Part shown: positions 27,912 through 61,200 of the stretch, one piece after another
How the letters are laid out: every line of letters begins with the position of its first letter
Numbering within the stretch: position 1 is the first letter of the stretch
Assembly: GCA_963402885.1 (NCBI GenBank)
Contig: OY727094.1
Span: forward strand, 7,752,501-7,816,500
DNA: 64,000 bases
Reading direction: 5' to 3'
Source of the DNA: Antedon bifida
Taxonomy: Eukaryota; Echinodermata; Crinoidea; Comatulida; Antedonidae
Position numbers and translations under genes: made by a program
The notes under the pieces: generated by a model
The model's database searches: none
Told to the model about the DNA's origin: nothing
Seen by the model: the letters and a program-made list of their open reading frames with translations, nothing else

Positions 27912-30900
27912 TCACCATAGCTTCACATGTCTTTTGCGTTCTTTTGGTGTTCGTAACGTCATCTTGTGCGAGTGGACAACCTTTCTTGGATTGGTCCGTG
28001 TAATTGGTTTTTCATCTTCAGTTTTCAGAGGAGATATGAGTACAATAGGATAATTGTCTAAGCTCTGCACTGGTGACTTCCTCGACCTGTTGACAAATGA
28101 GAAAAATAACTGTGCTTGTGAGATGAAAAGTGAAATTTAGGTTAATGGTAAAAGCTGTTAGTGGTAAAGGTGATGAAAATAATGGCAGACAATGCTGGTG
28201 ATGACAAAGTTTGTGATGAATGTGACAATGATGGTGATGAATGTGACAATGATGGTGATGAATGCGACAAGGTTAGTGATGAATGTGACAATGATGGTGA
28301 TGAATGTGACAATGATGGTGATGAATGTGACAATGATGGTGATGAATAATAATAATACCAGATTTATATAGCGCCCTTTTCATGAGTAATCATGCTCAAA
28401 GGCGCTTTACAAGCATTATTACCCCAGTATTTTTTGGGATCAAACACGTATGGAAACATACTCCCATAATGCAGCCGGTAACCAGCGCAGTTGTGTCTAG
28501 ATCTAACTGGGTACCCATTTATACACCTGGGTGGAGAGAGGCAAGGTAAGTAAAGTATCTTGCCTACGGATACAAGCAATGCGGCGAGAGTTGGATTCGA
28601 ACCTAGGTCTGACGATCGGTAGTCCAACGTCCAACACACTGCGCCACACGCCCTCACTGTGTTAATGATGGTGATGAATATGATAATGATGACAAAGTTG
28701 GTGATGAATGTGATAATGATAACAAAGTTGGTGATGAATGTGATAATGATGAAAAAGTTTGTGATGAATGTGATAATGATGACAAAGTTGGTGATGAATG
28801 TGACAATGATGACAAAGTTGGTGATGAATATGACAATGATGACAAAGTTGGTGATGAATGTGACAATGATGACAAAGTTGGTGATGAATGTGACAATGAT
28901 GACAAAGTTGGTGATGAATGTGACAATGAATACAAAGTTGGTGATGAATGTGACAATGATGACAAAGTTGGTGATGAATGTGACAATGATGACAAAGTTG
29001 GTGATGAATGTGATAATGATGGTGATGAATGTGCCAATGATGACAAAGTTGGTGATGAATTTGAGAATTATGACAAAGTCTGTAATGTGACAATGGTGAA
29101 AAAGATGGTGCTGAATGTGACAATGATGAAAAAGTTGGTGATGGCAATGATGACAAAGTTTGTGATGAATGTGACAATGATGGTGATGAATATGACAATG
29201 ATGACAAAGTTGGTGATGAATATGACAATGATGACAAAGTTTGTGATGAATGTGACAATGATGACAAAGTTGGTGATGAATGTGACAATGATGACAAAGT
29301 TGGTGATGAATATGACAATGATGACAGAGTTGGTGATGAATATGACAATGATGACAAAGTTGGCGATGAATGTGACAATGATAACAAAGTTGGTGATGAA
29401 TGTGACAATGTTGGTAATGAATATGACAATGATGACAAAGTTTGTGATGAATGTGACAATGATGACAAAGTTGGTGATGAATATGACAATGATGACAAAG
29501 TTGGTGATGAATATGACAATGATGACAAAGTTGGCGATGAATGTGACAATGTTGGTAATGAATATGACAATGATGACAAAGTTTGTGATGAATGTGACAA
29601 TGATGACAAAGTTGGTGATGAATATGACAATGATGACAAAGTTGGTGATGAATATGACAATGATGACAAAGTTGGTGATGAATATGACAATGATGACAAA
29701 GTTGGTGATGAATATGACAATGATAACAAAGTTGGCGATGAATGTGACAATGATAACAAAGTTGATGATGAATGTGACAATGTTGGTAATGAATATGACA
29801 ATGATGACAAAGTTGGTGATGAATATGACAATGATAACAAAGTTGGCGATGAATGTGACAATGATAACAAAGTTGGTGATGAATGTGACAATGATGACAA
29901 AGTTGGTGATGAATATGACAATGATAACAAAGTTGGTGATGAATGTGACAATGATGACAAAGTTGGTGATGAATGTGACAATGTTGGTGATGAATGTGAA
30001 AATGATGACAAAGTTGGTGATGAATGTGACAATGATGGCAAAGTTGGTGATGAATGTGACAAAGTTGGTGATAAATATTACAATGATGACAAAGTTGGTG
30101 ATGAATGTGACAATGATGACAAAGTTGGTGATGAATGTGACAATGATGACAAAGTTGGTGATGAATGTGACAATAATGACAATAATGTTAGTGATATGAC
30201 AATGATGATAATGTTGATGATGAAGATTATGATAACAATGTTGGTGATAACTACAATGATGATAATAACGACAAACAAAATAGTACATAAAAATATGAGT
30301 CTTGATAACGGGTAAGATTATATTAATAGTACAGTTACTTAAAGATGTATTGTCCCTTTGTCAAATTCCAAAAAAAAAAAAAAAAAAAAAGATTTCGAAA
30401 AAAAGTCGGTCATTTTGAAGTATCATAATAGTTATTATCAAAAAAAAAAACATTTAACTGAAATACAGACGGATTTTGGTTCAAAAAAATAACTTCCAGT
30501 CAAAGTTTTCGATCAAAACATATCTCATAATGCAACACGCTTATATTTGGCTACTCTGTATGCATAATCATAAAACTTCCTCGCGATCTGTGTGAAAACA
30601 CCTTCTCAACCGTGACGAGTTCTAAACAATCCTAATTAGCATCATGCATAATGTATACTCATGGTTTAAAATCTTTGTTTACTTTCGCTCGCGACCATTT
30701 TCCAGACGAAATGTAATCAAATTAATTTAGCTGTTAATTACGTAAAATAATAATAATACATCTTTAAATAAGGATTTTAGAGGTAAAAAAAAAAAGTTAA
30801 AACCATGGATGATACCATCATGAATGAATAAATGTTAATATAAATAATCGCAGCAATGACAATTTCTGACAAAATGAATGGAGGCAATAAATGTTTTACC

Positions 30901-43200: not shown

Positions 43201-46200
43201 GTAAGCGCACCACAATGAATTTGACCAATCATAACAAACTATACTTGTGATTGGTCAACTCACTTGCGTCATGCATATGTGTCCCAGTGGAAATGGTTAT
43301 AAAGTAAATAAAATAAAAACTAACCATAATGTTGCGCTGTTTAAGACGTTCATTCAGCTGTATTGCTTCTACATAGCGCCCTCTTTGGAGGTAGTGCATA
43401 ACGAGCAGTTCTTGTGAATTTGGCTCAGTACTGGTTTCAAGGTAGCGAATAAGCATTGCTTCTTCTTCATCAGTAAAATGCAATTTTAAAAGATTGTCCA
43501 TTGTATGTGCTACAAAAACAATGTATTTGTTAAATTTTCAAAATCCTAAATATTGTATTTAAAAAAATTTTAAAAAGTAAACAAAAATATTTCTATGAAA
43601 TTCAACAAAACAAATATATGAATAGTAATAATATACAAAAATACTTAATGACTGAATAATTAATTCTAACTATTCTTACATTTGTCTCATTTTATGTTTT
43701 GCAACAACATGCATACAAATAATAATATATAATATAAATTATAAACATTCGTTACAAAAGAAATTCATCAATGAATATATATATATATATTTTGTATGTT
43801 ATTGTATTTTTATGTGAGCGATTGTGCCTGTCATGAATTTCTGCAAGAACCAAATAAATCAGAATCTGAATGAATATAACCATGGGCGCCTCAATCTGCT
43901 TTGAATGTTACATTTTTAAAAAAGATTTTTACTCAAATATAATTTGTGCTTTCTTTTGAGAGTATCATGTATTTTTGGAAGAATCTTTTAAACCACATTC
44001 AAGAACAGTACAGTAAACAGTTCTTTTTATTAAAATTTTACCCACTACATAAAACAACAAGGACATAATGTAAAGAAGTATTAACCAATCACATGCAATC
44101 CTTTGGAAAATCATCATTAGTGATTGGTCAAATTACTTTATTACATTTGCATTTTTCCAAGTGGAAACCAATCTTAATAGAATACAAATGAACATAAAAT
44201 GTGCAATGTAATGTCATAATATTTAATTAGGGAAAAAATGATGTGTACTAGATGGAGATTTAATTAAAGACAACATTACTTTGTTGACATCCTAGGAACA
44301 GGTGTAGCAGAAGGTCCTGGGCAGAAGCGGGATCGTTATACTTTCTCTGGAATTGAAATGCTTCAGACGTTAATCTGAAAGGAGAAGAAATATTATCGGT
44401 GAGTTTTTTATTAAAAACAAATATTGTGCAAATTTAAATGCCAACTTAATGTCAATGGCTACCAGATGTCTCTATGAGACTAGTACCAGATATGAATATA
44501 CACAATATCAGTTATTCACCCAATTCTCAGTGCTGTATCACCACATGACAATTATTCAACAGTATCACAGGCACATTCCATAATACAGAGTCAATGTGCA
44601 TCACATGTGGTGCCTGTATCATGGACAATTAGATTGATGGTTAGGTTAGAGTCTATGATGCAGGCAGGGAAGGTGAAACACATGAGATGTATCATGAACA
44701 GTTAGATTAAGGGTTAGCTTAGAGTCTATGATGCAGGCAGGGCATGTGAAACACATGAGATTCTGTATTATGGAATTTGCCTATGATACACAAGACAAAT
44801 TTAGATACAGCACTGAGAATAAGTTGGATTTATATATAAAACACACAATATTGCTAAATATACCCATTAGCAAGAAGAACCGTAAGGTGCATTTGAACGT
44901 CTTCTAGCGTGTTGAGAGGTGGGTTGCGTGTCCGTTGGTAATGCAGCGCCTTCTTACTGTTGTCGTGGTACAGGAAGGCTTTCATGATGCGTTGGTGTTG
45001 CCATGACGGTAGGTCAACAGTGATGAGTGGGTCAAGAAAGGTTGTTATAGCATCCTGTAAAAATATAGAAGAAAATTAATTCTTATACTTTGATCACCCA
45101 ATAAGAATATTTACTACATAAGGGCTCTATTAAGGGGACACCTTTAGGACCCATTTAATTGTCCGCTGAATAGATGATGGGTGTCGTATTAAAACATTTC
45201 TCGGCCACTTTTTTCACAGGAAAGTGTCCCCTTAATAGGGGTGTCCCAAAGGAATACATTTGATCTCTGGTGTGCGTGTGTACAATTGAGGGACTAGTGC
45301 TGTTCCGCCATACCACGTGTGTTAAAGAGTCGCTATCCAATCGAGTTTAAACAATACCATGAAAACCAGTGATCTAATGGTTAGGACATCTGAATATCAA
45401 ACAGAAGGTTCCGGGTTTGAATATCGGTTGGGGCGACATTTTTTTATTCTCACAGATTTCCTCATCTTATAGTTGCAAATTAATAAATTAAATTTTAGTA
45501 TATCATGGGGTGGTTTAGAATTTGTCTGTGGTGTTTATATAAAACTGTATATACTGTATATCAGAAAAACAGTAGAACAAATTAAACATTTACCTCAAAC
45601 AATTTATGATCGAGAAGAAAAAAGCCTCTTAGTAACCTAGCAACACCGGGTGGTATACAAAACGTTTGTTCAAATTGACCTATTTTATCCAGAATCTGAA
45701 ATATTAAAAATAAACTCATTAACATAGTAGAATTTAATGTCTATTTTACATATTTCTCTTTAATTTATTATTCATTTATGATAATTTATAACAGATTCAT
45801 GTCTGATTTTTGCATTTTTACTTTGCAAAAAGTTCTTTTGCGTTTTGGTTATTAAATTTATTTTACATAAATAACTATACAAGGTATATTTTATTTGTGT
45901 TTTTTTATGTTTCAAACTTTCATTTCTGGTTACATTATATTATATATATATATTATATAAATCCAAAGGCAAATTACTGAAAAAATGACAATGCTGTGGG
46001 TATCAGTGGCTGGATCTCAATGGAGATACAAAAAAAAAAAAAGCGAAAAGCTAAATCAAAACGATAAGTAAAACAGCCAGAAAAGTTAGCAGAGCTTTCG
46101 GGAAACACTAGCCCTTCATCAGTGCAAGTGAAGGAATTGGATAACGTATATATAAATATATTATATATATTTACATTAATGGCAGTGTGTTGCACTGATA

Positions 46201-49200
46201 AAAAGTGATAACCAATAGATAAAATAAAAATTCACTCACCTCTTCATGCTTATTTGGATCGAGGCAGATCTCAAGTCCTTGTAGAAAATATGCAACAATA
46301 CAATGTTTAGTCATAAGTGGAACATTCTCAAGTAGATAGATATCCAACAGTGCCTAAGAAAAAGATAACTTATACAGTCAACTCTCCCAATACCTTTAAG
46401 CTAGCCTAATATGTCTGGTATTCGTAATGTGTTTCAAAAGACGAGCGGTTACGGTAAGCGGAAAACCGTGTAGCTTGTCCCACGTATAATCTGTACTGTA
46501 TCTACCAAAGCATAAAACTGCCTGTCCGCTCCGCATTTTGTGTAAATGGTCATAAGGAATAACACATATTCTATATTTTTATTACAGTTACCACTCGTCT
46601 TTGCCGTAATGGGAAAAATGAATCTGGGACAATTTGGACCTCAGTCTGGTTTTGGGAGAGTTTCTGGTTTTCAGAGAGTTTAGTGTTGGGAGAGTCGACT
46701 GTATTTAAAATAATTCTGTTTTAAGATTTTAAAGGAATTTGTATTTAACTTGCTGAAGAAAATGTTGTGTGTATTACCCATGTGGTGGTTAACATGCTTG
46801 CCTTCCAATACTAAGGTCTAAGGTTCAATCCTTACCTCATGCCAAGGGTTATATTTCACAACGTTAAAACTATTCCACTCCCTAAGCCTCAAATGAGACT
46901 TGAATTTTCGACACGTTTCAAATGTCTGTGATGTTATGAGGATCAGTGACCTTCTTTGACCTTAGTAACAGTTCACCGAAGGTCATCAGGTCATAGAAGT
47001 CACCAATCCTCATAACATCATAGGATTCTTCTCATGAAGATAGAAAATTAAAGGTATGTTGAATTTATGCTGTAAGTTTGTTTAAAAACATTTCACATCC
47101 TGTAATAAGGTTTATCGCAAATTGCGTGAGCGATGCATAATGGGAAGGGTTTGGGAGCAATAGCACCACCACCAGCATATAAAGTTTGTATTATACGGTG
47201 GCGCTATTGCTCCCAAACCCTTCCCATCATGCATTGTGCAATGACGTTTCTTGCGAAATCAAGGTATTTGCAATCAACCTTATTGGCGAATTTACTTTCT
47301 GTGTATGATATAAAAATTATCCAAATGTATTCAAGATATAAAAGAAACTTACATGTATACTTGGGGGTGGATATTTTCCGTTACCGTCCTTGTCCTCTCG
47401 GTTCCACAAATGGACAACATGATCACCTAGTTCATCTATTATTCCATCTATCATCAATATATCACTATCTCCACCAGACCTTTGAAGAAGTGAAAAAAAA
47501 AATTTATTTCATTTATTAAATTTACTATGCTACATTGATTGAATTTAAAGATGTATTGTCCCCAAAAAACATGAAAAATTTAGATTAATAAAATCAATCT
47601 TTTGCTTTAAATTACCAATTTTTTTTAATTCAATCTTTGGTCAAAGTGAATAACTATTATGTGACATTAAAATAGCATATTGAAAAAAAAATGTTAACAA
47701 AATTATTTTTCAGGGGGACAATATATCTTTAAAGTTTATTGTGTATTTTTTATGTTGTACTATATATTGAAATGAATGTCCAATAAATGATTACTTTATA
47801 TTATATAATTTATTTCTCTAATATATATACACGAGAGGCATTGTTTTGCCATGCATATTATCCCAATGTGACCAGCTATCAAGGAAAACAATGTTCCAGA
47901 TTATATAAAATACTGAAACTTTATTTTGTACAAAATATAAAGATCTGTCTACACTATCAAACTTTATGTGACAAAAAAATGTGATGTGCCCATTTTTGGG
48001 CACATCACTACAAAACATCTGATAATTACCTTGTCATTGCTTGAAGTTCTTGTCTGCGTTGGTCAAACGCTTCTCGAAGTCGACTGGCTGGGTACGAAAA
48101 CTGACCTTCAATTACCGGTTGACCGTCATCTTAAAAAAAAAACATGTTAAATTTCAAATACATAAATTCAATATTTGCACTGCTCTCCATGGAAAGAACG
48201 TGCTAACAACACTTTGAATCCTGACAAAACAATTGGGTTGCAATTAAATCTCAGAATTGAGAATAATAAACAAATATTAAATATTTTTCGATTGTTTTTA
48301 GAAAATAAGACGTTTTTCAACATTTTCTGAACATTACTTAGTAAAAATTTGTTAAATATGAAAGTTAGACATCAGACAGCATTTGGGCATATCACACGTT
48401 TTTGTTTTGTTAAACTAGTTTGATAGTGTATACAGAGCTTCAGCGCCAGTGCGCCCTCATGGGCTAGAGTTGCTCGTGCTTTGTGGCTTTAATTTCCTTG
48501 TTGTTGTATTGAGTTATTGATTGTTATTAAAATACATTATTCGCATTACATCGGTCTATGTGTGATCTGTAGAGTTGTGGCATATAAACATCAACCTTAT
48601 TGGCGTAGGCCATGTGACAAGCAATTCATCACCGAATCTATCTATTGTTTTACCTGGACACTCTGGTAGCAGTCCAACACGAATAAACCAAATGACAGCT
48701 TGAAGATGATTGGATATAAGCATTACAACATTCAGTTTGGTTTCTAGATCTGCCTGACCTATAAAGTTAAAAAAAACAAATTAGTATGTATTTTTATTTT
48801 GATTTTCCTAATAAACTGGAAAAAAAGTTTACCATTGTTAAACCAAATAAAATAATGCATTTATTCATGCAATTTTGCTTGTGGGTCACCTTTTATAATA
48901 CAGTGTTCTTTTTAATTACAATAACAATAAGTAATAATGACGAAGGAATGGTGTTATTTCTTATTGACAGTAATTTTTATTTAGCTTTTAGCTTATTACT
49001 GTATAATACTTTAGTGTCTTTATTGAGATCCAGCTATATATAGCATTGTCATTTTTTTCAGTAAGAATGCCTTTAGATTTAAAATAATTAATGTGGCATT
49101 TGCGATGAGGAAAAAAATTATAAGATTAATAATACTACAGTTTATATACATATCATTTGACTCTCACATTTATTCATTCTTTTCATCATTTAATTAAAAA

Positions 49201-52200
49201 TCAAAAAAATGTGAGATTAACAAAAAAACAAAATTATATATTATATTATATTATTATATTGGTTAAAACTAACTGTTTCTTTTTATAAGTGAAATCATTA
49301 TTTTTGTTGATTTTTTTTTCTACAAAAGTGAATAACTTTATTAAAACTGCAAAAGGCCTATACAAAATCTGATTTTATTCATCTTTATTTTTCATGTTTT
49401 TGGGGGACAATACATCTTTAAATGTTGATATTTTTTAAAATGCGAATCTGGATAAGCACCCTTTTATCTTTGAAATTCTTTGTTATAACAAAGTTTTACC
49501 TTAATGCAATGTTAATAATATTACTCAAGAATACAATATACATAAAAGCTATATAAAAAAAACAGCTTATTTATACAATAGCTTTTTACTATCAACCTTA
49601 TATTACATGTATACAGTTTATGATTTTACGGGTCACAACCAATAAAGAATTATTTCCATCATGGCTGTTAATACCAACAGTTGATAATCTAACTAATCAA
49701 AGAGTGCATAGCAATTAACCAGTGTTTGATGAGTAACCATGGCAACAGATCAATAGAGTGGAAATACCTATTCAACTACTGTTTCCTGTTCTAGATATTC
49801 TTTTTTTCGAAAAAGATGATTTTAATTTTGAAAGTGGATCATGCTAAGCTGTCGATATAGTCGTTTCTGTTCATTACGGACTTAATTATACGGTAAGATA
49901 GGTGTAAATATATTCTTGTATTGAACAAACAAATATGTCAATGAAATTTCCGTTTCATTTTATGACAAGGTTGAACTGATTAAATAATATTTAATGTAGT
50001 CTACTGTAAGCTAGCTTGTAATGCTGTTTGATACAGTATAGTGTGTAAACCGTAACTTAAATCATTTTTACGGTTTGAAAGCGAGCAACATCTAAGAACC
50101 GTATGATAGGATAGGCTAGTAAAATAGTATTCTGACAGGGATGTTTAATTAATGCTCAGTTACAGGTTTAAAATAAAATACACTGTATTTTATTGTTCAA
50201 TTTATTATTTGACTCAATTTTAAGGTAAATTTTTTTTTTTTAAATAGAGGTTGCTGTTTTTTTATGTGCTTGCTTGCCCTAAGTTTCATGTAAACTGGTT
50301 CTTTTGAATAAAGTTCAGCAACATAGTAACTTTGCATTTCGTGTTCTTCGTTCTGCGACCATAAAATGCAACCATCGAGTGGTACTATTAAATCAGCGTC
50401 TTTACACACATGGCTAGGCATACATTCAAACACACTTCCAACATTAAATGTTTTGGTTAAGCCCAAACCGTTTTGTCCGCACTGTCCAGTAATTCCTGTT
50501 CTATCATGTAATGGCAACGCTTAGGTTGTCTGCAACAACTATGGAACTGCGTCGGTAAGCTCTTCAAGCAATTGATATTTCTTGCTGCTTAGTCTTCCAT
50601 AGTTGGTATTTATTTTATTAAATTCTATAGTTTTTGCTATTCACTTAAAATCCTTCTTGCAATTCTACAGACAAAACAACTGAAGGCACTTTCATTGTTT
50701 CTTTGGTTTTAATTGATTATTCCATAAAAAGCAGTTAGGTATTAATACAAGTAATTTTTTGTTATTCATATTTTATACAAATAATACTTTGGACGTTTAT
50801 TCAATCAAACAAAACAGATCATACAGATGTATTAATTTTCATAATGCGGAACACAATATGTACACATTTTTCTAATATCTGAAGGTAGAGGAATAAGGAT
50901 TTCTGTAGTAAGTGTATAGCCATGTTGCGGGACCTTCCAAAATTCGGGTTACCCAAATGGCAGCGCGAGAGAGTAAGAATTTGAATACAAAATATCGGGG
51001 GAAAAGATGTTGTCCGTATACAGTTCAGAAATGTGAAGCGTTCAAAGCCCAACAAATGAAAACCCTGGATTTTCCCATTTTGTTTTATTGAAGACTGAAT
51101 ATTCAGTGCTTATCGTTTAACTCCGATACAAAGTAGGCAGGACTACTGTACAGTTCATCCGTACCAAAGAACACTTTGTCTTTGGATGCTGGATCGATAC
51201 GGAAATTTAAGCAGTCTTTCTGTTTGTATAATTTCTAATTTAATAATTTCAATTAAATCTTTAGTGCAACTGCATACCTCAAGAAATTTAATCATTGTCA
51301 ACAATTCAGTAATGTGTTCAATACAATTATAAGCAGTGTCTATGTCTCCCTCTGTAAGAGATACAAATGCCTTTAAATAAAAGACAAATGCAACTGGATG
51401 TGGAATATGGTAATCCTTTCCGTTGAGTTTGAGATTTTGCTGTAAGTTGTCATAGTTCCACGTGCGAGGCCTACGCATAAGAACGTCTTCCGAACGTATA
51501 AAGATAGGAGGAAGTTTTGATATTAACTCTTTATTTTTCTCTACTTCGAGAATGATGTTTGGTACAGCATTTTCAAGGAGTTCTTTTACCATTTCATAAT
51601 TTGCCATTAAATAATAGTATTTCAATAACAGAGTTATGCCACCAATACCATTGTCACTCCATCCATTAGGAAAGACCATTTCACGTCCTAATTTGTAATA
51701 ATGCAGTGGTTTGCCCAGGTAGGGACTTAAATCTGTACGGGGAAAGGTGTTTCCAAAACGAACAATTAAGGAAGTCAACAGATCACCTAAATACCGATAA
51801 AGACACTGTTTTGATGTTTTTCCGAAGCCTTCTGGCACTAAATTATGAATATTTTCTGCAACCGGCATAACAATGTTTTCTACCCTTTCTAATATTTTAG
51901 GGTATTTGCCCTTTTCGTAGGTAATAGCAGGCAAACATGAGTTAAACAATCCATCATGTAGGCCTCCACTAACTAGCCTCGATACTTCTGAATGCTCATA
52001 GATATCATAAAATCTACTTCCAGGTGGTAACTGCGAAATCGCTTGTAAAATCGATGTTTCAGCTCTAGTGTGTTTCAATATGTTTGTTTTCATGGCTGTG
52101 TAATCAAAATCATTATAATGTGAGCTGGGTATCTTCAGGTTATCACACATATCACTGATGACAATTTTCACCAGAGGGCACTCAATGACACTTGACATCA

Positions 52201-55200
52201 CCACAACCCAGAGATCTCTTTTTAGCATTGCCAAATCTTCTATTACACGGTCACAGCATATTTTTGACAAATGACTAATGAGATTTTGTTGAGGAACAAA
52301 ATAATGTGGAAGATTTCTACGTGTGTAGCAGTTTATGAGCCAGTTTAATACAGTTCTTATCAAACCCATGATATTTGAGTGATTGTGTTCAATTGTTTCG
52401 CACATCCACAAGCACGCAGTTTTTATGAAATAAGAACAAAATGGCGTTGGGTGGCAGGTATCACTGTAAGTACAATATCTGTTCTTAAGTGCTTTTAAAA
52501 CAAACATACATCTATAGTAAGGTTCATTCAAATTGTAAATTAGTTCTTTTTCAGCTACAGAAAATGATAGTCTCCATTCAATGTCTTTTGATGAACTCCA
52601 ATAGCGTCCAACTGGAACGGCTAAACAATCCGAAAGGAATATCGTTTTCAATAGCTCTTGTGATGGCCAGTTAGTTGGTCTATTTCTAACGAAATAATCA
52701 TCTGTGATTGACGGCCATGACTGACATTTAATATAAAATACAATATCCTTCGCTTTCAATCCTCTGTTGTCGTCACCTAATACAAATGCAGGGCCATGCG
52801 TTTCAGTAAACGGATATGTAACCTCGAACAGTTTTTTTAACGCATCGGCGTTCAGATATCCGTCATTATTAATTTCGCTATTGGGTGTTGGTGTTTGTTT
52901 CAAGTGCTTACTTGCCCTAAGCTTCATATAAACTGGGTCTTTTGAATAAAGTTCAGCAATACAGTAATTTTGCATTTTGTGTTCTTCGTTCTGCGACCAT
53001 AAAATAATGGGATCATCTTGTAACATTGTATCTTGTACCATTAAATCAAAGTCGTTACACACATGGTCAGGCATACCTTCAAAATTACTTCCAACAGGAT
53101 ATATTTTGGGGAACCCCAATTTGTATTGGTACACGTTCAGTAATTCATGTTCTATCATGTAATGGCAACGCTTAGGTTGTCTGCAACAACTATGGAATTC
53201 AATTACTGCGTCGGTAAGCTCTTCAAGCAGTTGATATTTATTGCTGCTTTCTTCCATAGTTGGTATTTATTTTAATAAATTCTATAGTTTTTGTTATTCA
53301 CCTAAAATCCTTCTTGCAATTCTACAGACAAAACAACAACTGAATGCACTTTGGACTCGTTTCATTGTTTCTTTGGTTTTAATTGATAAAAAGCAGTTAG
53401 GTATTAATACAAGTAATTCTTTGTTATTCATATTATATACAAATAATACTTTGGACGTTTATTCAATCAAACAAATCAGATCATACAGATGTATTAATTT
53501 TCATAATGCGGAACACAATATGTACACATTTTTCTAATATCTGAAGGTAGAGGAATAAGGATTTTGTAGGTGTAAAGCCATGTTGCTGGACCTTCCAAAA
53601 TTCGAACTAGTTTGACATTATGTCCATATATGGGCATATCACATTTTTGTGTGTGTAGACAGAGCTTTAGTAGAGGTTCCCCAAAGAAAGGGTCATTAAT
53701 GCCTTCTTTGCCATTTATATCTTATTTATATTTCAGTTTAAAATCTTGGTTTATTTAAAATCTCTTCAAAAAACAATTGTACAGTACAATAAAAAAAATC
53801 AACAAATGTTTAAAATTAAACAAATTAATTATTTTAAAAATTCCAATAATCTAAAATAAAAATTATTTATCATAAAATTTAATTTTTTTCCCCATTCATT
53901 TTTTTTTACAGAATTGTGATTTGGATGAAATAAGTACAAATGGCAGCTTTTTCTATTAAAGTTGGATTTTTAAAATACCAGTATATTTTTGGAATATCAA
54001 TTCTATTTGGCACAACACTGTCTGTCCTTTCATGGCCATGCCCAAACCTGTGCACTTGTGATGAAAACAAAGGCCTGGTCAACTGTACTGACCGACAATT
54101 GACAGAATTTCCGGCCAATGTTTCAAGTTACACTACAATACTTCACTTGGGAATTAACAAATTGGAAAACATTAGTTGGAAAAATTTTGAAAATCTTGGT
54201 TTGTTGACGGAACTTAACATCAAAAGAAATAATCTTCAAGAAATAACCGACGCTCCGTTCAGACAATTACGCAATCTTACCAAGTTGGTGCTGCGTCACA
54301 ACGGACTAAGAACGCTTAGTTCCGATTGTTTCAGCGGTTTAACGTCACTGAAGACTTTAAGTCTGAGTTACAACAATCTAGCGACATTTCCGGAGAATCT
54401 TCGCACACATACGCCAAATTTAAAATTTCTTTGGCTGATATCAAACGAAATTACCGTAATTAGGCCGGAAAGTGTCAACTTGCCCAAACTAACTCGATTA
54501 ACGTTAGGTACTAACCAAATCCACACGATTGAAAGTGGTACTTTTCAAAATAATTCGCGGTTGGTATTTTTGGATTTTCGTAATAACATGCTATCCAGTA
54601 TTACATACGAGTTTATGTTACAGTCGCTTGGAAATCTGAAACATCTTGATCTGAGTGAAAATAATATATGGAACATATCTGACAAAGCTTTTATATATTT
54701 GAAGAAGTTGGAAACACTGAAACTTGATTATAATCCTTTTTATTCGCTACCATGTAATATTTTTAATGACGTCGTTAGCCTGAACCAATTAACATTACGG
54801 CAGAAGACCATGGAGGGTACTGCCGTAAGCGGAATGACCTGCACGGACGTCTGGTCACAAGTTATCAAACGTTTGTATGCCATTGAACAAATGAGAAATA
54901 ACGGACAGCTTATTGACGGAGATCGACCGGTGACAATTTCAGACTCCAGTTTAAATATTTGATATTAGGGGTGAATTTAAAATGGTAGCCCAACATTCAA
55001 CTCTTAAGTAAAATCTACTCAGTAGGCTAGAGAAAAATTAGAAGTGAAAAATAGGCTCACTGACCTAAATATTTATGGCCAAAAAATGCATTATGGGTTA
55101 GTAAACACAAATTGTACTAAGCTCACAAAGTCACTGTCGTGGACAGAAGAATTTGCGCTGTAGCTACCAGTACCAGTAATGGTTTTATGAAGCGTAAATA

Positions 55201-58200: not shown

Positions 58201-61200
58201 TCTTTGATGACCTTTAAAGCTAGTGTTCACTAGTCCAGTCTCCATGAGGCAACAGACACTAAAACTTAATGATGACGGATAGAAGTGCTGCTCTGGAGCG
58301 GGCGCTTGGGATGACACAAACCGTGACATCAGAGATGTGTCTACAGATGTATTCTGAGATGATGAAAAGAATTAGAGATTTTTTGATCATTTCACGATCT
58401 CACAATTTTTTCTTCATACCAAATGAATATTTCAATAATGAAGGTAAACCAGACATTGAGGGAGAGGCCAAAGATACTTAAAAAATATTTTGTTTTTTTT
58501 AATGTCACTCACCAAAAATTGTATCATAAAAAATGTAATTTAAAGCTAAAATTGAAATCATATTGACTGGAATGGGTTTATTTTGTTTATTTAAATTAAT
58601 CTTTATTTTTCATGTTTTTGGACAACACTTTAAAAGTGAAGTTAATATGAAATATAATTCCTATTGAACTTTGTGAATCACATCAACACCGAACATAAAT
58701 TTTAATACTTACGAGTAAGACATCTGGACAGGAAGCTTCCATTACAGATTCCAAGGAACAGAACGCAACATACGGGCAAACATCAGGACGTTGAATATAC
58801 CTGTAAAAAAGAGAAACTAAGTATGTTTAACATCAAATTGAATATCTTTAATATTTGACGAAAAAGGGAACAAATCTTTGCCATCAGACAGAACATTTTT
58901 CTACTAAAAACTCATAGTAAAGTTTTCAAATCTTATATCAATATACTTTTTATTTTCTAGATTTTTCTGATTTAAAAAACAAAAACGATTATTTTGCTTG
59001 ATATGAGAGAGAAAAAGAAATGTACATACCGAACATTAGCAGGCATCTGAGCATGATACCAACGATTAAGGTCAAATAAAGCCAGGAAGCAAAGTGGGTT
59101 GGAGGTGCCTTCATCACCAGTCAATGCTGCCTCCCAACAGAACACACACAGGCCTAGGTCCATCTCATCCTCCTCTTCATCATGGTATGCGTCTTCTCCT
59201 CTTGTTTTCCTTTTCTGGATTGTAAAGCAGGAAATCATTCTACTGCCGATCGACGTTGCGCTGTCCGGATTTGCGTTGTCGGCTGTGAGTGCAAATTCAA
59301 ATCTTGCTTCACAATTAAAAAATTCCTGTGAAAATGTAATAAATACCATATAGGTAATTTTTTTTTTCATTTAATCAATTAAATCAATAATTAATTCTGC
59401 CAGCGGAGGAGGAGGGTATTTCTAGGTTAAAGGTCTGCTACCAAGCCTAAAGTTCTTCCATCCAACTAGGTCTAATGTGCTTCCACCAAGCCTAAAATTC
59501 TTTCACCACCCAGCCTAACATGCTGTCACCCAGCCAAAAATAAAGTTATTTTACCCAGACAAGCCTAAAATTCTTCCAATCAGTCAGGCCAAAAGTTCTC
59601 CTCCCCAGGCTTAAATTCGTCCACCAAGCCAAGGCTTAAATTCGTCCACCAAGCCAATGCTTAAATTCGTCCACGAAGCCTAGGCTTAAATTCATCCACC
59701 CAGCTAGGCCTAAAGTTCTTCAGCAGCCTAAACCTACCGACTGAAGATATATACAAACTACTTACGTGGTACATATAACCATGTCCTGGATAAAATTTCT
59801 TTCTTTCATAAGCTAATTGGAACAAATGAACGTCTGTTACTACGTCCGGGCTGCAAAAAAGAAATAAAAAATCTATTACATACTACTTACTTTTAACATA
59901 AAAAAAAAATGATCTATTTAAAGCTATGTTCACACTAGATCTGTCTACACTATCAAACTTTGTGACAACAAAATTTGATGTGCCCATATATGGAAATGAT
60001 GTTGTCATATCACTACCATATTTGAGCATATCACTACCATATTTGGGCACATGTATGGAATCACAAATGGATGGTGTGAGCATCTGAACAAAATACCAAG
60101 TTATATTAAAACGCTTTTGAGTAATTCAAACTCACTCACTCAGACGTCATCTCATGAACTCTACAAGTTTCTATTTTGCATACTGGTCTGTAGATATCTG
60201 GTTATTATTCTTTTTCTACACTATCAAACTAGTTTGACAAAAAAATGCCCAAATATGGTAGTGATATGCCCAAATATGGTAGTAATACCCATATATGGGT
60301 ATCACATTTTTTTGTCACATAAAGTTTGATAGTGTAAACAGAGCTTAGAAAGTCTATAATGTTGTTACCTGATGTCAGTAAGCATTGGTCCCCTTGCTGC
60401 CATCATGTAGGAGAAGTTCTCAGGATCATCATCAGGTTCCAGGTAAGCAAAATGAGTCACAGGTGAAACTACTTGCGTTAAAGGACTACTAAACCTGTAG
60501 ATATATAAAATAGTTTAGGTCTGGTCATATTTATTTATTTTTTATTTATTCAATTTTCTGCCATATACAATACAAAGAAGACAAAACAAATATAAAAGGC
60601 AAGGGACCAAACAGGTGCAAAACACCTATGCTATTTGGTGAACTCAGACCAGAGCACAGAAATAAACCAAAAAAAAATTATATTCTACAATTAAAGCATC
60701 TACAAGAAAGCGACCAACTACACACATTTTCAACATCAAAATTTTGTTAAAAATTTGGTTTTAAAAGAACTAACAGAAATATCTAGTTGTTCTTGGTCAC
60801 ACGTGGGATATATGATTGAAAAGAAGATTCTGTTCTGCAGCGACGAATATCAAAAAGAGTACCAACAGAAGATATACTGTAAGTACTAGAGCGTAAAAAA
60901 AATCAAATTCCATCATTTTTTTTTTAGAAAAATTCTATTACAAGTTCGAACCCTGTACTTACTCTAATATTGGTGCAGCTAGCCTCCAGATTTGAAAACA
61001 TCCAAAGTCAAAGCCTACAAATAAAGACCCTAGCTTAGGAACATATGTAAGTGCGGACACACAGACACCACTGGCCTGGAACGCCTTCAGTATCTCTCCA
61101 CTTGGTTTTGAAAAATTAAAAGCACGGTTTTTGTGATAATCACCTGATAAAACAAAATATGAAGTAAATGTATTATTATATATTGTCAGAAATTGAGAAA

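Follow-up and report, generated by a model that had tools for sequence, protein, structure and literature searches.

An intronless frame of 700 codons is found at 51155..53257 on the minus strand of a 64,000-nucleotide stretch of Antedon bifida DNA (contig OY727094.1, positions 7,752,501 to 7,816,500; this whole stretch is termed the window). It had been described, from the letters alone, as an apparently catalytic cGAS/Mab-21-like gene nested in a nucleoporin gene. The locus raises the question whether it encodes a working cGAS-like receptor (cGLR), and what its long C-terminal region may be. Our analysis makes it reasonably likely that the product is a catalytically competent cGLR, a member of a lineage-expanded and mostly acidic clade in which a helical module is conserved at the C-terminus.

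The frame was found as first described: it runs from ATG to stop on the minus strand, lacks introns, and carries GS at residues 56-57, D69-x-D71 and D171. Two Pfam domains exceeded their cut-offs, Mab-21 over residues 171-241 (E 8.6e-8) and Mab-21_C over residues 249-342 (E 2.6e-12), which places the gene in the Mab-21/cGAS superfamily. The nucleotidyltransferase (NTase) core, residues 1-241, occupies 52535..53257 (minus), with the Pfam Mab-21 match confined to residues 171-241, and the Mab-21_C helix bundle occupies 52232..52513 (minus). When the window protein was compared to PDB with phmmer the top matches were MB21D2, cGLR1 and cGAS chains, and D171 was aligned to the corresponding aspartate in the cGAS and cGLR chains. 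This alignment had been chosen beforehand as the test of the third catalytic acid, and it agrees with D171 taking that role. A profile made from the family matched cGLR chain 8gjy with an E of 2.8e-22 over profile positions 8-352, and its GS and first acid pair aligned with the same motif in 8gjy. The best E against cGAS was 6.6e-15 and against MB21D2 6.8e-15, while the match to Mab21L1 was weaker (6.5e-6). The reading of three metal-ligand acids is supported because the G56-S57 activation-loop motif (53087..53092), D69-F70-D71 (53045..53053) and D171 (52745..52747), all on the minus strand, align with the cGAS/cGLR active site. Judged by these residues and domains, catalytic competence of the gene product is likely, in agreement with the original prediction of an apparently catalytic cGAS-like protein.

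The gene had been presented as a single gene. Its catalytic frame stood, but the gene does not stand alone: it belongs to a clade in which at least 23 members were found. In the genome searched (315.6 Mb, 27 contigs) the window protein gave 62 matches at E <= 1e-5, grouped into 45 places, a few of which are other Mab-21 genes. Loci were drawn from 30 of the 62 matches, and the count of 23 is a lower bound. Among the 30 loci one is the window gene itself (L001), three (L007, L016 and L030) come from a single broken copy, and four more (L014, L025, L026 and L029) were excluded for being broken or incomplete; the 22 others and the window gene make up the 23 full-length frames aligned, with lengths from 662 to 871 residues. 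Invariant in all 23 are G56, S57, D69, D71, D171, R229, S231, S233, S275, Y276 and K279, several of the last six of which we take to correspond to nucleotide-contacting positions of cGAS. The GS and the three metal-ligand acids expected of a catalytic cGLR are thus present in every member. At E up to 1, Mab-21_C was matched in 23/23 members and Mab-21 in 22/23. Chance is excluded as the origin of the active-site motif, since it recurs in 22 further full-length frames of the genome.

Two further observations concern members of this clade. Locus L027 (733-3348; G000:C12, approximately 19.985-19.989 Mb) has the frame of 871 residues, with five strongly hydrophobic segments within its first approximately 200 residues, and its product is possibly a membrane-anchored cGLR. 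Within G000:C9:28530031-28745229 there are four cases in which a lone tail fragment starts approximately 2.4-3 kb ahead of a family copy, whole or partial.

Several points weigh against a catalytic cGLR. The literal published motif, h[QT]GS[X8-20][DE]h[DE]h[X50-90]h[DE]h, was not found in the window gene, where V precedes GS, K precedes D171 and 97 residues separate the acid motifs. The residue before GS is T in eight of the 23 members and Q in none, and the gap between acid motifs is 93-130 residues, exceeding 90 in 23/23 (published range 50-90). The gap of 11 residues from GS to DxD in the window gene is inside the published range, and only a short stretch precedes GS. It also counts against our reading that the activity, ligand and fold of the window protein are predictions from sequence.

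The mismatch to the literal motif is compatible with a pseudoenzyme scaffold, which would act through protein contacts, for example with an IKK-type kinase, and give no nucleotide signal. Three shrimp Mab21 proteins, which share the Mab21 family and an immune role with the window protein, are such a case; they are described, in passages of PMC12928593, as activating IKK-epsilon without cyclic dinucleotides, and a helical tail would be suited to protein contacts. However, the shrimp proteins are said in the same passages to lack essential nucleotidyltransferase residues, whereas in the present family GS, the active-site acids and the arginine and both serines of the RxSxS stretch are unchanged in 23/23 members. 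A scaffold is for this family improbable.

The position of the gene among Mab-21 proteins points to a catalytic cGLR as well. The Mab-21_C profile had 52 matches in the genome. One of these genes, L044, is the Mab21L orthologue (E 1.2e-194 to Mab21L1). It belongs to the same superfamily as the window gene and is also single-frame, but it differs from the long clade in lacking both GS and tail and in falling outside the clade. In addition, 13 short cGLR-like genes of 319-444 residues were aligned, and all 13 carry a GSS...EFD motif; L048, L054, L057, L060 and L066 were excluded from this set as split or partial. Eleven of the 13 form a mostly basic, cGLR-like array at G000:C9:15715091-16519348 (15.7-16.5 Mb). 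In a tree of 39 rows the 23 long genes formed one group with a support of 100/100, apart from the GS-less L044, and the 13 short genes likewise formed one group (100/100). The tree was midpoint-rooted and did not include MB21D2, and the deep branching order is unsure because of this rooting and because the long cGAS and Mab21L branches are possibly misplaced. Both tree position and GS reject a Mab21L identity for the window gene, so that its placement outside the non-catalytic Mab21L proteins held.

The charge of the catalytic part bears on the ligand. In the window protein this part has an isoelectric point (pI) of 5.95 and a net charge of -7 (pI of the whole protein 6.33), and the median pI of the long-clade catalytic parts is 6.1. 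The short proteins have a median pI of 9.0, with 11/13 above 8. Passages of Li et al. (2023; PMC9980059) give nucleic-acid-sensing cGLRs a pI above 8.5, a value that the window protein does not reach, and propose that acidic cGLRs sense non-nucleic-acid ligands. Choanoflagellate cGLRs are described, in parts of PMC12424679, as active yet insensitive to double-stranded DNA (dsDNA) and double-stranded RNA (dsRNA). A non-nucleic-acid ligand is plausible since the clade is mostly acidic and the published nucleic-acid-sensing cGLRs have a pI above 8.5, and we give such a ligand an even chance. The acidic core would make nucleic-acid sensing less likely. Against this, the pI exceeds 8 in four of the 23 long-clade cores. 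The Mab21L orthologue too has a basic pI (9.2), which alone is therefore no proof of nucleic-acid sensing.

The same four basic cores speak for a conventional nucleic-acid-sensing cGLR, in which dsRNA or dsDNA would bind the back face of the NTase domain and the C-terminal module would only oligomerise or localise the enzyme; the sections covered of PMC9980059 also give dsDNA and dsRNA as the sole cGLR ligands known in 2023. The pI and charge of the window core and the clade median argue against it, and no cGAS-type zinc insertion was visible in the 23-member alignment. The tail is kept in 23/23 members and is fast-changing in places, which fits a role in recognition as well. Overall we consider direct nucleic-acid sensing of this kind unlikely.

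The C-terminal module, residues 345-700 (51158..52225, minus), is common to 23/23 members and has invariant residues of its own, for example Y513, K516, Y521, P530, D535, W600 and D603. It had been described as a region of some 320 residues without known motifs; the lack of a convincing Pfam or PDB match was borne out, but the length is approximately 356 residues. The best Pfam result for the tail was DUF1672 in five of the 23 members (E 0.0039), and the tail consensus matched CTD9 with an E of 0.0095 and 16.9 bits, below the cut-off of 27.9. Tail profiles searched against PDB gave a best E of 0.015, and 0.018 in a second run. No known fold was thus assigned to the tail, with no convincing PDB profile match and no Pfam E below 0.0039. 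Viral relatives of the tail, searched for in viral_contigs with a single peptide pattern, were not confirmed.

The tail looks helical. Its mean hydrophobic moment at helical periodicity is 0.77, compared to 0.556 (standard deviation 0.042) in shuffled sequences, none of 200 shuffles being as high, and its beta periodicity is lower than in most shuffles. A simple propensity prediction of its secondary structure was uninformative. By eye, residues approximately 622-655 look like a tetratricopeptide repeat (TPR). Solenoid-type Pfam matches were seen in single members, weak (E 0.03-0.2) and among unrelated families, and profile self-comparison of the tail found no internal repeats. The alignment of the tail profile to a TPR consensus was not significant, which counts against a TPR-like fold. 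Such a fold is nevertheless our best guess because cGLR-TPR fusions are published, and by this analogy we hold it fairly probable. Passages of Li et al. (2023; PMC9980059) describe cGLR-TPR fusions, and state that 87% of the published cGLRs have no added domain. In Crassostrea gigas a Mab-21/cGAS domain is followed by TPRs (parts of Kaur et al., 2021; PMC8195603). The oyster protein resembles the window protein in having a Mab-21 cGAS domain and a C-terminal region, called TPRs in the oyster, but in the oyster protein HEPN, immunoglobulin, DED and TRADD-N domains come first, and the two tails are set side by side by description only. The module had been put forward as the most likely undescribed element of the window. 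It is conserved and unmatched in Pfam and PDB, but "undescribed" is too strong, since proteins in which TPRs follow a Mab-21/cGAS domain have already been published and the module shows helical, weakly TPR-like features.

We compared the window gene to its nearest intact paralogue, L002 (C7:2.26 Mb). The coding sequences differ at 283/2088 positions and the gap-free flank columns at 53/598 (Fisher p 0.002). Compared to the flanks, residues 1-170 (103/498 differ, p 3e-8) and residues 345-700 (146/1068, p 0.004) are more divergent, while residues 171-344 are not (34/522, p 0.15). Among nine paralogue pairs, hand-picked from close pairs and with some sequences shared among them, the median ratio of nonsynonymous to synonymous change (dN/dS, omega) was 0.30 for residues 171-344 and 0.38 for residues 476-560, and 0.70, 0.79 and 0.55 elsewhere. 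The N-lobe and parts of the tail thus change faster than the catalytic bundle, and the pattern fits what would be expected of a receptor whose catalytic engine is kept while its surfaces change. In the bootstrap of the window pair, residues 561-700 had an omega of 2.54 (1.38-7.35), which excludes 1. Positive selection is suggested by these sequence comparisons.

A number of results weigh against positive selection. The flank alignments hold 129 gap positions that were excluded, and flank divergence is therefore perhaps understated. By codon-based maximum likelihood the whole-gene omega of the window pair is 1.27, not significantly above 1 (twice the log-likelihood difference, 2dlnL, 1.83). For residues 1-170 it is 2.15 (2dlnL 4.90), as one of eight uncorrected comparisons, and the bootstrap range of 0.86-2.66 spans 1. 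Six other parts, a broken third copy included, had an omega of 0.86-1.74, and none reached a 2dlnL of 3. The five-part split to which residues 561-700 belong was picked after the differences were seen, their omega drops to 1.98 with a different alignment, and besides the window pair it exceeds 1 in one of eight other pairs. Gene conversion is a further possible cause of the low divergence of the middle part.

A whole-gene omega near 1 is likewise what a decaying multicopy family of little present function would give, through relaxed constraint, and broken copies do exist, including a remnant beside the window gene. However, both genes of the closest pair retain an open frame of approximately 700 codons, whereas a simulation that placed 283 random substitutions in the window gene introduced a mean of 11.7 stops, with at least one stop in each of 1000 runs. 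The low median omega of residues 171-344 also argues against decay, as does the active site being invariant in 23/23, though the choice of full-length frames favours such invariance. Decay is very improbable.

STING genes, which a cGLR-STING pathway would require, were found in the same genome. STING_LBD gave 19 exon matches in tandem within 44 kb on one contig (G000:C9:20658532-20702487), 14 of which passed the curated cut-off, including two that did so only together with frame neighbours. The matches form approximately nine groups, some with one exon only, and the joined pieces of one copy matched solved STING with an E of 3.5e-14. In 14 control genomes no STING or Mab-21_C match was found; the named ones are prokaryotes and the control is weak. 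Several STING genes alongside expanded cGLRs are described for a coral and an oyster in passages of PMC9980059. Indirect support for innate sensing comes from the expanded clade, the array of STING matches and the way in which the sequences change, and an immune role of the gene product is likely on these grounds. The innate sensor originally proposed has thus gained support, but the novelty claimed for its module is reduced by the published TPR-type fusions.

Based on these observations, a ligand would bind the back face of the NTase domain and/or the helical tail, and this binding would free the enzyme to make a cyclic dinucleotide from two nucleotides, a signal that at least one STING paralogue would read. 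With the core mostly acidic, a non-nucleic-acid ligand or tail-based sensing would be likelier than direct binding of dsDNA or dsRNA. Tentatively, the clade may represent an NLR-like class of sensor-enzymes, in which the fast-changing tail and N-lobe would detect a pathogen ligand other than nucleic acid, whereupon the acidic core would signal by cyclic dinucleotide to the STING paralogues.

The nucleoporin gene around the cGLR-like gene was identified as ELYS, with pieces both upstream and downstream on the minus strand, in agreement with the nesting first noted. Upstream, beta-propeller pieces are located at 59017..59316 (PF16687, E 3.6e-13, above cut-off) and 58228..58335 (its C-terminal part; PF16687, E 0.0015, below the Pfam cut-off). 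Downstream, a possible piece covering residues approximately 649-681 is at 48655..48753, colinear but weak alone (segment score 7.6 bits), and a piece covering residues from approximately 754 is at 46213..46353, found by the joined match to solved ELYS. Searched singly, these two had no Pfam match. ELYS domain pieces follow at 45594..45689 (PF13934, E 1.7e-4, below the Pfam cut-off) and 44860..45057 (PF13934, E 3.8e-7, above cut-off), both also in the joined match. All pieces are on the minus strand, and the downstream pieces joined matched solved ELYS with an E of 8.1e-24. Because ELYS pieces flank the gene on both sides, all on the minus strand, the cGLR-like gene is nested in ELYS in sense orientation, with the exons for ELYS residues approximately 490-649 left unmapped. 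A literature search pairing Mab-21 with ELYS found no paper on both among the results listed. Mab21 is reportedly nested in Lrba/Nbea of animals, as Tsang and co-workers are said to have described in 2009. The likeness is that of a Mab21 gene inside a larger gene, but the window gene has ELYS as its host and falls in a different branch of the superfamily.

A second copy survives only as a broken remnant at 50250..50946 (minus), which comprises upstream sequence and 5' end with in-frame stops and is approximately 85% identical to 52887-53604. The upstream flank at 53258..53560 (minus) was found by sequence comparison to be common to the remnant and L002, and may hold a promoter. A broken second copy is located just downstream of L002 too. 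Copying in DNA blocks with flanks is indicated since broken second copies adjoin both the window gene and L002.

Elsewhere in the window, a leucine-rich-repeat gene of 340 residues in one frame (53940-54962, plus) is located inside the same ELYS gap, and a long minisatellite of 30-base units at 28669-30224 has frames open on both strands. The window was also scanned for RNA families (gathering threshold) and for tRNAs, and none were found.

The long clade resembles the animal cGLRs treated in passages of PMC9980059 in having an NTase domain and helix bundle with GS, DxD and a third acid, in large lineage expansions with several STING genes, and in that some of the published members are acidic and ligand-orphan. 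It differs from them in its conserved tail of approximately 350 residues, longer acid-motif spacing and mostly acidic cores. The superfamily and the TPR fusions are already known, whereas the tail unmatched in Pfam and PDB, the 93-130-residue motif spacing and the mostly acidic clade appear to be new. The ligands of acidic cGLRs are proposed to be non-nucleic-acid, and none is identified in the sections covered of PMC9980059. In the single genome of A. bifida, at least 23 long genes with a common tail, most of them acidic, occur alongside short genes that are mostly basic and an array of STING matches. This amounts to a built-in comparison, and the conserved tail would be a defined domain open to testing.

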